Source: Candidatus Poribacteria bacterium
GTDB taxonomy: Bacteria > Poribacteria > DTPJ01 > WJIO01
DNA: 5,252 nucleotides
NCBI GenBank assembly: GCA_014730235.1
Contig: WJIO01000106.1
Span: 1-5,252 of the forward strand
Reading direction: 5' to 3'
In this document: one piece after another, positions 118-5,252 of the stretch
How positions within the stretch are numbered: the stretch's first letter is position 1
Layout of the letters: the number at the start of each line of letters is the position of its first letter
The notes under the pieces: generated by a model
Told to the model about the DNA's origin: nothing
Seen by the model: only the letters and a program-made list of their open reading frames with translations
Databases searched by the model: none
Position numbers and translations under genes: made by a program

Positions 118-255
118 CTATTGCGCATAGACATAATCTACAAGTTGTCTGGGGTTCAGTAAAATGTCAATAGATTGTAAACCGAAGTGACTCATATCGC
201 CACAGACCGAATCCTGGCAAGATATTTCCTTGTAATCTAAATATACCCAGGAATC
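118..255 (-). other. Coding-like segment out of frame with the 89-residue gene; possible frameshifted tail or tiny gene
   Basis: The reading frame between TAG (256-258) and TAG (118-120) reads like protein. It begins DSWVYLDYKEISCQDS and ends ILLNPRQLVDYVYAQ, with ordinary codons for this window. The only ATG in it is at 193-195, which would give a 25-residue peptide (MSHFGLQS...). That ATG has no well-placed Shine-Dalgarno site; GGCGAT lies directly against it. The segment starts where the upstream 89-residue gene ends and overlaps it by about 20 bases. It could therefore be the tail of a longer protein broken by a frameshift, a separate micro-gene, or chance. Past the TAG at 118-120 the frame continues for 12 sense codons (LMDLTEAHPTEI) to TAA. 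I see no standard slippery heptamer at the junction. Function unknown. Confidence 0.3.
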
Positions 256-506
256 CTATAATCAATCCCTGAATCCTGACCGCATTGCAATTGCCAATTA
301 GCCCATCTTACGGCCTCCCTTATCTCAGACCTTATGGCTAAATCCAACAACTCCTCCATCAACATATAGTATTCACCGGAGTCAAGAATACACACAATGC
401 CATAGCTGAAAATTATATCATTCAATTTCCCAAGAACATGGTCAGTATCAAACGGAAAATCTCCGCAAGACCTGATATACTCTATAATGTTATGAATCCT
501 GTTCAT
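237..506 (-). CDS. Hypothetical protein, 89 residues
   Basis: I do not recognise this small, probably cytosolic protein. It has no signal peptide or clear membrane segment. The N-terminal third (residues 4-12, NRIHNIIEY-like) and residues 47-73 (acidic and leucine-rich, then REAVRWANWQLQC) look helical. The central stretch DIIFSYGIVCILDSGEYY at about 30-47 looks like beta strands. Cysteines occur at 14, 39 and 75 but form no CxxC pair. The ATG at 504-506 is well supported: GAGGTGG (513-519) lies 6 bases upstream and matches the archaeal anti-Shine-Dalgarno sequence. A long hairpin (517-548) ends exactly at that site, as it does for the gene starting at 4142. It stops with TAG, and a coding-like segment continues downstream in another frame, so the C-terminus may be incomplete. 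Confidence 0.72.
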   Translation of the reverse strand: MNRIHNIIEYIRSCGDFPFDTDHVLGKLNDIIFSYGIVCILDSGEYYMLMEELLDLAIRSEIREAVRWANWQLQCGQDSGIDYRIPGYI

Positions 507-1626: not shown

Positions 1627-2595
1627 CTACCAATCAAAGCGTATGCTCTGCATGTAATCCCGCTCGTCATATAACTGCCCAATCTGCTCCTCAAGCTGGT
1701 CTTTCTTCCTCTGCAATCGCTGATACCTCATAGTATTCCCACTGACAGAAGCCCTCAACTGGGCATTCTCAATTCGATTCAGTTCTTCTTCATATTCCTG
1801 AATGCTCATCTCTATCTCATCAAGCTGATCCCAGAATGAATAAAGAGAGCTGCTGCCAACCAGACTATACTCAGGAAACTCTATTCTGCTATGGCTGATC
1901 TCTCCAGTCCTGTAGTCATAAGTATGCAGTGTGTGCGCCGGAATATCCTGATTTGATAAACTTTCAGAGGCAATCACCAATAAATGTGAGTTATTTTTCA
2001 TCTCCAAAGGCGATCCGTTATTCCTGGCAAAGTGAAGTTTTAGAGCATTATTATTTCTATCAGTTTCCAGGCAGATGAATGCCATATCACCTTTAGCTTC
2101 GATGTTCTCTTGTCTACCATCCAAAAATAATGCAATCTCGTGAGCCAATGCTTCGCTGTCGTTGAATTCATAATCCTCCTCAATTTCTCCCCAGTAATTC
2201 CTGCATCTCCTGTATTGAGATGTCCTATAGTTTATCTTCATTTTCTCATGCTTTGCCTTTAGCTCATGGGCGTTATATATCATGCCGTTATGGATGACAT
2301 AATATTTATGATTATATAATGGCTGTGAGACTGCAATGGGATGGGTAGTTTTTATTGTGTTGCTGGTTGATGTGGGATAGCGATGGTGAAACAGTATCTC
2401 GCTGAATGAATGCCTTTTCAGATATTGCTTTATCCCGCTTTCATGTGTGGCTCTGCAAGTCATAAGCCTTTTACCGGATATTCCCATAAAGCCAAATCCC
2501 TCATGGCCCCGATGTTTCTGGCGGAAATAATGTTTCAGCGCCAGCCTGTTCACCGGTCTGCCTGTAAAGTTTTTATAGTAAATTATGCCGCACAT
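1627..2595 (-). CDS. Stand-alone class II glutamine amidotransferase (Ntn-hydrolase glutaminase) with C-terminal coiled coil, 322 residues
   Basis: It hydrolyses glutamine to glutamate and ammonia, by homology to the N-terminal glutaminase domains of GlmS, PurF and AsnB. Numbered from the ATG at 2595, the protein begins MCGI. Removing Met exposes the nucleophilic Cys2. Family motifs follow in order: HRGHEGFG (28-35), HHRYPTSTSNT (70-80, Arg72 matching the Gln-binding Arg of HTRWATHG in GlmS), THP (84-86), HNGMIYN (102-108, oxyanion Asn103-Gly104), NDSEALAHE (145-153, Asp146 matching the Gln-binding Asp), FARNNGSPL (189-197) and VIASES (207-212). No synthase domain follows. Residues about 252-316 are instead a charged coiled coil, probably for partner binding. 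A GTG at 2601 would add Val/Met-Lys before Met-Cys and block the catalytic N-terminus. GGTG (2601-2604) lies 5 bases before the 2595 ATG, so I use that start. It lies 2 bases after the amidoligase stop and is the obvious ammonia source or amide-cleaving partner for it. Confidence 0.9.
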   Translation of the reverse strand: MCGIIYYKNFTGRPVNRLALKHYFRQKHRGHEGFGFMGISGKRLMTCRATHESGIKQYLKRHSFSEILFHHRYPTSTSNTIKTTHPIAVSQPLYNHKYYVIHNGMIYNAHELKAKHEKMKINYRTSQYRRCRNYWGEIEEDYEFNDSEALAHEIALFLDGRQENIEAKGDMAFICLETDRNNNALKLHFARNNGSPLEMKNNSHLLVIASESLSNQDIPAHTLHTYDYRTGEISHSRIEFPEYSLVGSSSLYSFWDQLDEIEMSIQEYEEELNRIENAQLRASVSGNTMRYQRLQRKKDQLEEQIGQLYDERDYMQSIRFDW

Positions 2596-2597
2596 TT

Positions 2598-3791
2598 TCA
2601 CACCTTCAGCTCAGAGACAAGCTTTGAGAATAACTCCCCCTTTGTGATTGTCCCCAGTGTGTAGAACGTATAGATGCAGTTTAGCCAAAACCTGAATTTT
2701 ACCTTAATGAGATAGGATAATTCCTGAAATAATCTGCCAATGCTCTCCTCTGTCCGGAATACGTCATCAAGCTTTCTATAGCAACCCCTGTAGGACTTGC
2801 TGAGGATCTCATTGCTCCGCTTTAGGGTAATCGTGTCTTTGAGTTTCAAAAATCGCTTTGGGCTATTGCTGTAATATCGGAGAGTTTTTCCTATAAGTTC
2901 CATATACCTGATGATATAAGAAGGCCTATCCAGGCAAGCGTCAAAAAGCCTGAATTCAATGCAGGTATCATAATGAGTGTATACTGCCGAATACTTCCTG
3001 TCCCTGGACACAACCAGATCCCTGAACTCGAAGGCTCTTGTTCTGTCATCTGGGGAGCCAAGACACACTAAACCCAACAAAAGCTTACTCACCTGTTTCC
3101 TGAAATTGGATATTTTCTCTATATCCAGCTTTTCTTTTACTGGATATCTGCTGCATGGGAGCAATGTTATATGAAGTCCTGCGTTACCTGTATCGCATTC
3201 ACCAAACTCCCGGCAGGTTTCAGTGAAAGCCCTCACTATTTCCGGCAGCTTTTCCAGATAATCAGCCCGGAGAGTCATGGTAACCTCTGTATCCACAGAG
3301 CCATCATAGTATATGTGGGCGTGCTCCGTAAGCCTCAATATTTCCCCTAACTTATCAGTAAATATCTCCCAGAAAGCGTCGTGGTAGTCCTCATGCCAGT
3401 CATCGTTGTCAAAATATCCCATTCCGTTGCACTCAGAACAGCCTATATGTCCGTCAGAGCAGTCCGGACAACTCGTCTCCCTTTGCCCGTTATCGCAGTA
3501 TGGACAAGCAAGCGGCTTATCTTCGCCATTGTCAATAAAGCCTCTTCCATTGCACCTTGAGCATGTTGTCCATGTAGTTCCTGTGCCATCGCAGTTTCTG
3601 CAGGATATGTTGCCGTTGCCATAGCAAACAGAACATTCCGATTCAGCGTTGTAATCCCCGGGACGGACATTGGCCTCAAGCTCCACCTTAACATAGGGGA
3701 AGCCCTTGTCAATTAACAGATTAGCAATCCTCTTTGCCCTCATGACAATGTTATCTTTAGGCTTGTGTTTTGTTACAGCAATAGTCTGCAT
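2598..3791 (-). CDS. Glutamine-synthetase-like amidoligase (Amidoligase_2-type COOH-NH2 ligase) with inserted six-CxxC zinc domain, 397 residues
   Basis: It probably uses ATP to activate a carboxylate and join it to an amine or ammonia. The target is unknown. Family motifs appear in order: VELEA (36-40, like the first-strand GVEIE), YYDGSVDTEVTMTL (161-174, like DGS...E-T-P), GLHITLL (205-211, like GLHVHV) and TCIEFRLFDACLD (276-288, like TIEFR), then the helix YIIRYMELIGKTL (292-304). Between the first strand and DGS lies a zinc domain, residues 53-125. It has six CxxC pairs (53/56, 64/67, 77/80, 96/99, 108/111, 118/121), several of the DnaJ type CxxCxGxG. DnaJ has four pairs and two zincs; this could hold three. 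There is no J domain. Residues 305-397 are basic and aromatic and unassigned. The start ATG has an excellent site, AGAGGTGAT. The gene sits between a helical protein and a class II glutaminase, an association known for this ligase superfamily. Confidence 0.82.
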   Translation of the reverse strand: MQTIAVTKHKPKDNIVMRAKRIANLLIDKGFPYVKVELEANVRPGDYNAESECSVCYGNGNISCRNCDGTGTTWTTCSRCNGRGFIDNGEDKPLACPYCDNGQRETSCPDCSDGHIGCSECNGMGYFDNDDWHEDYHDAFWEIFTDKLGEILRLTEHAHIYYDGSVDTEVTMTLRADYLEKLPEIVRAFTETCREFGECDTGNAGLHITLLPCSRYPVKEKLDIEKISNFRKQVSKLLLGLVCLGSPDDRTRAFEFRDLVVSRDRKYSAVYTHYDTCIEFRLFDACLDRPSYIIRYMELIGKTLRYYSNSPKRFLKLKDTITLKRSNEILSKSYRGCYRKLDDVFRTEESIGRLFQELSYLIKVKFRFWLNCIYTFYTLGTITKGELFSKLVSELKV

Positions 3792-3796
3792 CTGGA

Positions 3797-3805
3797 ATCA
3801 CCTCT
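3797..3805 (-). promoter_or_regulatory. Strong Shine-Dalgarno site of the amidoligase gene
   Basis: AGAGGTGAT lies 5 bases before the ATG at 3789-3791 and is a full match to the archaeal 16S tail. It overlaps the final codons of the preceding gene, so termination there may feed initiation here. This fixes the amidoligase start. Confidence 0.75.
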
Positions 3806-4142
3806 GAGAGCCGGACTTTGTAGCCCGGTCCTGATGCTTTACATACTGCCTGTAGAATTCCTCAACCTCATTCCAGAACTGATCAGCTTTATAGTCCATA
3901 TTCAGTTGTATGGATTTCTGAAAGATCAGTTTCACTGACAACCCATAGATACATTTCTTATCTCTGTATCCGTTGCTGTCTTCTTTAACTTTGCCGCCCT
4001 TCTTTGCAATTAGTTCATCAATCAGCTTTGACGCCCCTCTTCTCGACCCTATTCCGCTGAAATCCACAGCAGTATTGGTCTGTTTTGCCAGCCTGCGAAT
4101 TACTGCAAGCTGTTTTTCTGTTGGTTCATTTCCGGGATTCAT
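3798..4142 (-). CDS. Small helical protein with N-terminal TEKQ...AS..I..L domain, first gene of the amidoligase operon, 114 residues
   Basis: Exact function unknown. Residues 7-48 (PTEKQLAVIRRLAKQ, then RRGASKLIDELIAKKG at 34-49) match a small helical module that I know from many phage and plasmid proteins, often beside DNA-processing domains. It is usually a short accessory domain, possibly for nucleic-acid or protein binding. Residues 64-105 form a second helical unit with Trp90 and the run FWNEVEEFYRQYV (89-101). There are no catalytic motifs and no signal peptide. The ATG at 4140-4142 has GGAGGTGG just upstream. The longer frame from TTG at 4202 would translate the leader hairpin and ribosome site and is rejected. 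The stop lies 6 bases before the amidoligase start, so the proteins are probably made together. It may be an adaptor or substrate of the ligase/glutaminase pair. Confidence 0.78.
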   Translation of the reverse strand: MNPGNEPTEKQLAVIRRLAKQTNTAVDFSGIGSRRGASKLIDELIAKKGGKVKEDSNGYRDKKCIYGLSVKLIFQKSIQLNMDYKADQFWNEVEEFYRQYVKHQDRATKSGSQR

Positions 4143-4146
4143 GCTC

Positions 4147-4187
4147 CCACCTCCATTCAGTTTTTTCGCTATCAGAAAAACTGAATG
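4147..4187 (-). promoter_or_regulatory. Leader hairpin plus Shine-Dalgarno site of the amidoligase operon
   Basis: CATTCAGTTTTT (4154-4165) and AAAAACTGAATG (4176-4187) form a perfect 12-bp inverted repeat with a 10-base loop. On the minus-strand message the 3' arm runs straight into GGAGGTGG (4147-4154), which is 4 bases before the ATG at 4142. With transcription starting near 4193, the hairpin would fill almost the whole leader. It is not a typical archaeal terminator, because no T-run follows on the minus strand. It may control access to the ribosome site, protect the 5' end, or bind a protein as DNA. Compare 513-548. Confidence 0.65.
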
Positions 4188-4216
4188 AGGGGCAGTGGTC
4201 AAACGCCCTGAGAATA

Positions 4217-4224
4217 TTTATAAA
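4217..4224. promoter_or_regulatory. TATA box shared by the divergent operons
   Basis: TTTATAAA is palindromic and can be read both ways. On the plus strand it is preceded by GAGAAT, close to a TFB recognition element, and its centre is 26 bases before the ATG at 4247. That predicts a leaderless message for the gene there, which indeed lacks a Shine-Dalgarno site. On the minus strand the same spacing puts a start near 4193-4195, giving a leader of about 50 bases that holds the hairpin. The minus-side recognition element is poorer, so plus-strand use is better supported. Confidence 0.68.
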
Positions 4225-4246: not shown

Positions 4247-4663
4247 ATGTTTTGGAAAAAGAAAAAGCAAAAGAAGCAACCAAAGCTTATACCTTATACT
4301 CAAGTCACTGTTAAATACGAACCAGTAACACCTGAACAGATAGCGGCATATTTGATTAAACAGCAACTATGGAAATATTTGATTGAGCGTAATGCTGGCT
4401 ATAGTTCAGGACAAAGAAGGAATAATTATCCAGATGATACTTTTTATGATCCATTAAGGGAGTTTGATAAAGCGCTTGAAGATTTTGATGCCGAATTCCA
4501 GAGAAGAAATGATGAATTTGAAAGACCAATAAGGAAAATGGAAGAGGAATTAGCAAATATGAGCATGCCCAATCTGGGTGATATAAAGGTGGAAGACGGA
4601 ATAGCCTACATGGCGACCAGCGTGTATGTAAAAAATGCGGTCAGACAGGTCTATGATCCATGA
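4247..4663 (+). CDS. Hypothetical basic-tailed helical protein, 138 residues, leaderless
   Basis: I do not recognise this gene. The N-terminus is strikingly basic (MFWKKKKQKKQPK), as in nucleic-acid-binding or membrane-surface tails, and has no hydrophobic segment behind it. Residues 28-49 (TPEQIAAYLIKQQLWKYLIE) are helical. Residues 51-69 are polar and disordered-looking. Residues 68-103 form a highly charged helix with coiled-coil character (FDKALEDFDAEFQRRNDEF). The C-terminus holds a strand-like EDGIAYMATSVYV at 116-128. It has no cysteine and no catalytic motif. The start is set by the TATA box at 4217-4224, which places transcription essentially at this ATG. An ATG five bases upstream is in another frame and gives only a short ORF. 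It is divergent from the amidoligase operon and shares its control region, so the two units may be regulated together. Confidence 0.75.
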   Translation: MFWKKKKQKKQPKLIPYTQVTVKYEPVTPEQIAAYLIKQQLWKYLIERNAGYSSGQRRNNYPDDTFYDPLREFDKALEDFDAEFQRRNDEFERPIRKMEEELANMSMPNLGDIKVEDGIAYMATSVYVKNAVRQVYDP

Positions 4664-4677
4664 TTCAGACTTCCTGA

Positions 4678-4686
4678 AACTATAAG
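4678..4686 (+). promoter_or_regulatory. Weak TATA-like element before the coiled-coil gene
   Basis: AACTATAAG is centred about 29 bases before the ATG at 4711, a distance that would again give a nearly leaderless message. No Shine-Dalgarno site precedes that ATG, which favours leaderless initiation. The match is poorer than those at 1502 and 4217, and read-through from the gene ending at 4663 is an alternative. Confidence 0.35.
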
Positions 4687-4710
4687 AACAGCAATAAGCA
4701 GTAATATTGC

Positions 4711-5115
4711 ATGGACTACTTAAAAGACTATTCCATGCTTACAAACGGAATGCCGGAAAAGAGCAAAAAAATACTCTTTGAGGTAATCTCCGACAGGATC
4801 TATTTTCTAAAGAAAAATATTGGCGAGATTAATTCTCAATTAGACGAAAGGCAGAAGCTCAAGGATGAGCTAAAGTCTAACATTGATTATGATATGTGCA
4901 GGATACAGACCGAGATATACAAGCTGGACATTATGCCCGATATGCTCAAGCGCACTACTCTTGAAAGCAGGATAATGGATTTGTGCAAAGAAAAGCGGGA
5001 CAAGGAATTATCATTCTGGCAGGATAAGATTGAGCTAAAAAAAGAGTTGAGAAAAATTGAAAAAGAGCTAAGAACAGCAATGCTTGATCTGTGGATAATT
5101 CGGTTTCTATCTTAA
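4711..5115 (+). CDS. Hypothetical coiled-coil protein, 134 residues
   Basis: Almost the whole protein is charged helix. Residues about 19-75 (ILFEVISDRIYFLKKN, then INSQLDERQKLKDELK) and about 77-129 (ending KELRKIEKELRTAMLDLW) are two heptad-like helices separated by Pro76. This suggests an antiparallel helical hairpin or a dimeric coiled coil. The only cysteines are at 63 and 92. I see no signal peptide, membrane segment or enzyme motif. It lies 47 bases after the preceding gene with no ribosome site, so it probably has its own weak leaderless promoter. I do not recognise the family. A scaffold or partner role, perhaps with the coiled coil of the glutaminase across the control region, is speculation from context only. 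Confidence 0.75.
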   Translation: MDYLKDYSMLTNGMPEKSKKILFEVISDRIYFLKKNIGEINSQLDERQKLKDELKSNIDYDMCRIQTEIYKLDIMPDMLKRTTLESRIMDLCKEKRDKELSFWQDKIELKKELRKIEKELRTAMLDLWIIRFLS

Positions 5116-5130
5116 CTTGACTTTGTTACA

Positions 5131-5252
5131 TTAGTTTCTACGTTTGGTTTTATGCTTTCGATGCTTTGAACGTCGTGCTGATAATCGTGCTTTATGCTTC
5201 TGTTGAATAATCTTGAGTATCTCATCTGGAGTCATCTCCCGTTTGGGAAGGA
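5131..5252 (-). CDS. C-terminal fragment of a very basic protein, runs off the right edge
   Basis: From the window edge to the TAA at 5131-5133 the minus strand reads LPKREMTPDEILKIIQQKHK followed by a tail of mostly Arg, Lys, His and Ser ending KRRN. Residues TPDEILKIIQQKHKARL look like an amphipathic helix; the tail looks like a nucleic-acid-binding extension. An in-frame ATG at 5233-5235 could start a 34-residue protein, but the frame stays open upstream to the edge and GGGAG lies directly against that ATG, too close for a ribosome site. A longer gene entering from the right is therefore more likely. It converges with the coiled-coil gene, 15 bases apart. I do not recognise the family. Confidence 0.5.
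   Translation of the reverse strand, partial: LPKREMTPDEILKIIQQKHKARLSARRSKHRKHKTKRRN

Follow-up and report, generated by a model that had tools for sequence, protein, structure and literature searches.

What do the adjacent genes for an amidoligase-like protein and a class II glutaminase do together, and which of their neighbors belong with them? The window, that is, the whole stretch of DNA analyzed here, is the entire contig C22 (5,252 bases) of a 5.5-Mb genome bin. The sequence-only reading of this stretch had described a compact set of three minus-strand genes, coding for a small helical protein, an amidoligase with a zinc domain, and a stand-alone glutaminase. We confirmed the three open reading frames (Table 1) and the gaps of 6 and 2 bases between them. 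These distances hold with the glutaminase starting at the ATG at 2595 and not at the GTG at 2601; the ATG is preferred because it yields a protein beginning with MCGII, and class II glutaminases need a cysteine directly after the initiator methionine. Each of the three genes is preceded by a ribosome-binding site (GGAGGTGG, GAGGTGAT, or AAGGTG). All the motifs that had been cited for the two enzymes were found, including VELE, DGS, GLHIT, and IEFR in the ligase and MCGI, HHRYPTS, HNGMI, and NDSE in the glutaminase.

Table 1. Features of the window and their positions
Feature	Position	Strand	Remarks
Leader hairpin of the first gene	4144-4195	minus	Buries the GGAGGTGG ribosome-binding site of that gene; MFE -23.1 kcal/mol, z -4.67
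114-aa protein	4142-3798	minus	First gene; ORF confirmed
GS-fold amidoligase-like protein, 397 aa	3791-2598	minus	Second gene; ORF confirmed
First core strand of the ligase, K35-x-E37-x-E39 (ExE)	3675-3689	minus	Predicted metal ligands; E37 and E39 invariant (19/19)
Inserted zinc module, ligase residues 53-121	3429-3635	minus	Six CxxC pairs, four of them CxxCxGxG
Y161-x-D163-x-S165...E169...T173 motif	3273-3311	minus	Y161, D163, V166, E169, and T171 family-invariant
AG-x-H207-x-T209	3165-3182	minus	First His kept; second His of HxH is T here
E279-x-R281, predicted catalytic strand	2943-2957	minus	CIEFRLF in frame; no variation across the family or PF12224
Stand-alone class II glutaminase (Ntn type)	2595-1627	minus	Third gene; ATG at 2595
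Charged helical, coiled-coil-like C-terminal tail of the glutaminase	1657-1833	minus	Coiled-coil type Pfam matches, residues 257-315

The glutaminase scored 27.2 bits against GATase_7 (cut-off, 25), reaching the curated family score, and matched the purF model with an E value of 1.5e-7; its PDB matches are PurF structures, to which its glutamine-site residues were aligned. The N-terminal catalytic Cys and the Arg, HNG, and Asp residues of the glutamine site are all present in the window protein. When it was aligned with 36 viral relatives (37 sequences), the Cys, the Arg (R74), HNG, and NDSE were found to be kept in at least 90%. GATase_7, the purF model, the PurF structures, and the viral relatives thus bear out its identity as a class II glutaminase. 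The same 37-sequence alignment revealed that charged helical tails are common to many of the viral relatives, so that the coiled-coil tail is no special property of the window's enzyme. Scanning viral sequences with the glutaminase signature pattern HHR-x-PTST-x-N-x5-HP yielded 41 stretches holding 41 glutaminases of this signature, and by its sequence the window glutaminase is a member of a large viral family. A viral member of this family found no match by tblastn in 50,697 GenBank phage records, and a PurF-like sequence was the only match to the window glutaminase in named GenBank phages.

The viral loci had been picked by the glutaminase motif alone, without regard to a ligase. An amidoligase gene lies directly upstream on the same strand for 36 of the 41 viral glutaminases, usually within 30 bases and mostly across gaps of a few bases. 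Many uncultivated viruses have the two genes as immediate neighbors. About ten of these 36 amidoligases belong to the window ligase's own family. Among the upstream ligases from outside the family, eight were sampled against Pfam and all eight were PF12224 proteins far above the cut-off, and 24 sequences of the viral set gave strong full-length matches to a PF12224-type profile. This count bears out the proposed functional coupling of ligase and glutaminase, and it is at odds with the outcome named beforehand as fatal to that proposal, namely, that homologues of the two enzymes are rarely neighbors elsewhere.

Further genes lie near the pair in individual viral contigs. We found GGACT (gamma-glutamylcyclotransferase) in five of them (L077, L092, L096, L100, and L101), a RimK-type ATP-grasp protein in L103, L106, and L107, a PF14395 COOH-NH2 ligase in L056 and L061, a C26 peptidase in L060 and L069, a second PF12224 protein in L101, and terminase or helicase genes in L099. 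Tailed-phage contigs are among those in which GGACT, RimK-like ATP-grasp, or a second COOH-NH2 ligase accompanies the pair. The GGACT, RimK ATP-grasp, PF14395, and second PF12224 partners fit gamma-glutamyl or peptide-amide chemistry. The ATP-grasp, GGACT, and PF14395 partners are present in phage relatives but not on the window's own 5,252-base contig. In another viral contig (L108:979-6948), several GS-like ligase paralogues with a G-F/I-E-L/I-E motif surround one glutaminase.

None of the Pfam ligase models matches the 397-aa protein. Scans against Pfam, PHROG, and NCBIfam matched its zinc region alone, and neither the whole ligase nor the ligase without the zinc insert reached the gathering cut-off of PF12224 (22 bits). 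A phmmer search with the ligase retrieved ten viral ORFs (E values from 6e-42 to 5e-13), each adjoining a glutaminase, and a profile-guided scan for the family gave 16 viral loci and one contig of a bacterial bin. The family profile aligned collinearly with PF12224 in hhalign (P value of 2.8e-5, score of 45.6), whereas none of 60 controls with shuffled columns exceeded 16.7 and the reversed alignment scored 14.0; family alignment A5 likewise matched the phage set in hhalign (P value of 1.4e-4). The profile match became weaker once very divergent amidoligases were pooled, and single-sequence hhalign of the ligase against PF12224 gave a signal too weak to use. The expected relationship to PF12224 is hence found as profile-profile homology, while the direct Pfam match did not materialize. 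Some candidate relatives were rejected along the way: a pattern search on IEFRLFD in DNA returned chance matches and one ordinary PF12224-type protein, and BLAST matches in huge phages and Halobaculum plasmids were confined to DnaJ-like zinc modules, the proteins being unrelated in all other respects.

Single-sequence structure prediction of the ligase was of no use (pLDDT of 37), and an AlphaFold2 model made with an 18-homologue alignment attained a pLDDT of 81.9 and a pTM of 0.73. The best 50 Foldseek matches of this model are all glutamine synthetases or GS-type amide synthetases, with E values from 2.5e-5, yet TM-scores of merely 0.3 to 0.44. With VIA-align, the best 50 matches are all of the GS/GmaS type, the top one having a Z score of 14.1 over 260 residues at 4.3 Å. 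A GS-like fold is supported by the model together with the Foldseek and VIA-align matches, in agreement with the earlier assignment, and fold comparison gave no sign that the protein lacks it. Glutamine synthetase and GmaS (gamma-glutamylmethylamide synthetase) share the fold with the window ligase at Z scores of about 14 and 4.0 to 4.8 Å, but the identity is about 10 to 15% and they are without the zinc insert. These enzymes use free ammonia or methylamine and have no need of a partner glutaminase gene.

In glutamine synthetase, the ExE pair, a His, and the ExR pair make up the metal and ATP site. Alignment A6 of the ligase family showed E37, E39, Y161, D163, E169, T171, A204, G205, H207, R252, R257, E279, and R281 to be invariant in all 19 members, and the catalytic motifs of PF12224, i.e., ExE, D-x-S...E, the first His, the R, and ExR, are present in the family alignment. 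The second His of HxH is invariant in 11 phage PF12224 proteins; every member of the ligase family has T, S, or A in its place, for which reason the chemistry or the nucleotide handling may differ.

The zinc domain that had been read from the cysteine motifs is real. In the model, this 12-Cys module interrupts the ligase core after its first strand and ahead of the next helix. It has the CxxCxGxG spacing in common with the DnaJ central domain PF00684, against which it scored 17.8 bits, below the cut-off of 32.7. The number of cysteines in the insert ranges from 5 to 17 among the ligase homologues and is zero in three of them (L067, L101, and L104), which occupy two separate places on the ligase tree. 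The module is likely dispensable, because some relatives have none, and the tree suggests that it was lost twice. CxxC-rich regions of another sort, located at the N terminus, occur in many of the other ligases next to glutaminases; one is a LIM-like domain. Two tandem ligase-glutaminase pairs were seen in one viral contig (L058:9754-13928), where the second ligase has an added CxxC-rich region.

The small helical first gene did not hold its place in the set. Its 114-aa product matched no family in Pfam and the other profile scans, and it has a homologue in none of the related loci, whether viral or in the closest bacterial contig (L109). The gene may be cotranscribed with the pair, but comparison of the loci leaves it outside the conserved unit. 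A hairpin in its leader hints at translational control of this gene. The remaining ORFs of the window (237-506, 820-1014, 1011-1475, 4247-4663, and 4711-5115) neither reached the cut-off of any family nor have homologues among the related viral loci. TATA-like boxes at 4217-4224, about 1503-1512, and about 4680-4690 lie some 20 to 30 bases before the starts at 4247, 1475, and 4711; these starts are without a clear ribosome-binding site and resemble archaeal leaderless promoters, though the bin is bacterial.

An archaeal origin, which had been assumed earlier and was raised again by the TATA-like boxes, was set aside because the 16S rRNA of the genome bin is bacterial (1,521 bits). The window contig could be misbinned. 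A 73-base repeat at 5113-5185, which may mark where a mobile element ends or be an intergenic repeat specific to this genome, is 81% identical to a copy in bin contig C167 and recurs as a shorter piece in C147, mildly supporting the binning. Within the phylum, 84 genomes searched for either enzyme gave nothing beyond generic glutaminase-domain matches, and ligase, glutaminase, and PF12224 searches of these 84 and about 390 relatives turned up no protein related to those of the window over the full length. As a whole, the gene pair has its nearest relative on contig JAJFJH010000121.1 of a Nitrosomonas sp. MAG (L109), which forms one clade with the window in the ligase family tree, with full support. 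Its ligase is of the zinc-module family (41% identity, E value of 1e-83), and a glutaminase of equal type (39%) follows 10 bases after; it differs in having 8 cysteines in the insert against 12 in the window. Upstream of that pair lies a carboxypeptidase-regulatory-domain lipoprotein-like gene. We counted the conservation of the pair in a second bacterial bin in favor of coupled enzymes.

The view that amidoligase and glutaminase genes are linked is credited to Iyer et al. in 2009. In the podophages LUZ24 (gp18-gp19) and phiEco32 (phi32_84-83), a PF12224 ligase gene is directly followed by a class II glutaminase gene on the same strand, as is the ligase gene of the window, and their ligases share with that of the window the GS-like motifs ExE, DGS, H, and ExR. 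Related arrangements occur in other named phages. Phages with such a pair have ATP-grasp and gamma-glutamylcyclotransferase genes nearby where these are present, the gene composition around the pair in our viral contigs is as in LUZ24, phiEco32, and their kin, and a module of this composition has been described for phage UFV-P2 (PMC3890496). The window ligase differs from those of LUZ24 and phiEco32 in lying below Pfam detection, in its inserted zinc module, and in the lost second His, and the window glutaminase is of a different subfamily (HHR-x-PTST-x-N), the one absent from the GenBank phage records searched by tblastn. A bacterial chromosomal two-gene unit, with overlapping ends, of a PF12224 amidoligase and a small stand-alone class II glutaminase-like protein starting with MCRMAA was also found in two genomes of one family (L039 and L040), but there the gene order is reversed, the zinc module is absent, and HxH is intact. 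The phage amidoligase-glutaminase kind is known; the variant in the window is, by tblastn, absent from the 50,697 GenBank phage records.

We propose that the core of the locus is probably a phage-type, two-enzyme, glutamine-dependent amide synthetase acting on a carboxylate. The proposal starts from what was observed, namely, the sequence families, the fold, the conserved catalytic motifs, and the adjacency of the genes across many viruses. The N-terminal cysteine of the glutaminase would hydrolyze glutamine to release ammonia; the GS-fold ligase would spend ATP to activate a carboxylate, which probably belongs to a peptide, a gamma-glutamyl compound, or the side chain of a protein, and couple the nitrogen to it to form an amide. 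We infer that ammonia would pass from one protein to the other and that the reaction would run in the direction of synthesis; the zinc module would most likely dock the substrate or a partner protein. Against this reading count the changed second His, the failure to detect PF12224, and the fact that the other enzymes of the phage modules are not on the contig.

It is also conceivable, if rather doubtful, that proteins or metabolites receive an amino acid or small peptide from the ligase as an isopeptide or gamma-glutamyl tag, much as PafA attaches Pup, with the glutaminase supplying glutamate or trimming a glutamine-derived group and no ammonia being fed. Peptide-bond formers do occur among GS-type ligases, RimK ATP-grasp and gamma-glutamylcyclotransferase genes lie beside the viral relatives, and linked ligases frequently work in succession (PMC4431377); however, the partner that lies closest and recurs most constantly is the glutaminase, the usual ammonia donor, and the pair has no conserved companion gene for a tag protein or a peptidase. 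Modification of DNA bases or nucleotides with an amine or amide, as protection from host nucleases, seems improbable. DNA hypermodification is a common use of odd ligases in phages, and most relatives lie in phage contigs, some adjoining terminase and helicase genes, but no nucleotide-modification genes were recognized near the pair, and the Nitrosomonas contig shows no phage gene in view.

The altered second His would also suit a Dop-like hydrolase that removes an amide or isopeptide modification, the GS fold allowing deamidation as well in Dop. We consider this very unlikely, given that ExE and ExR have both been retained and that a partner glutaminase, which would produce ammonia, speaks for synthesis. 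That independent genes came together by chance on a small contig is scarcely credible: the 114-aa gene is indeed not conserved with the other two, but the ligase-then-glutaminase order, with gaps mostly of a few bases, is kept in the viral loci and in the Nitrosomonas bin, and the adjacency count in the viral loci already contradicts such an accident.

Phage amidoligase-glutaminase pairs have been noted for years, and what the viral amide-forming modules modify is a long-standing question. The two-enzyme amide synthetase proposed here brings to it a ligase family unseen by the standard profile, with one usual active-site residue missing and a removable zinc module, all within a unit reduced to two genes and some 2.2 kb, a small system open to direct expression and assay. 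As a tentative idea, less likely than the amide synthetase itself, the locus may represent a modification system of viral origin, fed by glutamine, whose zinc module selects the protein target; some bacterial chromosomes would have captured the minimal two-gene unit, which might put a new amide or isopeptide mark on proteins of the host or of phages.
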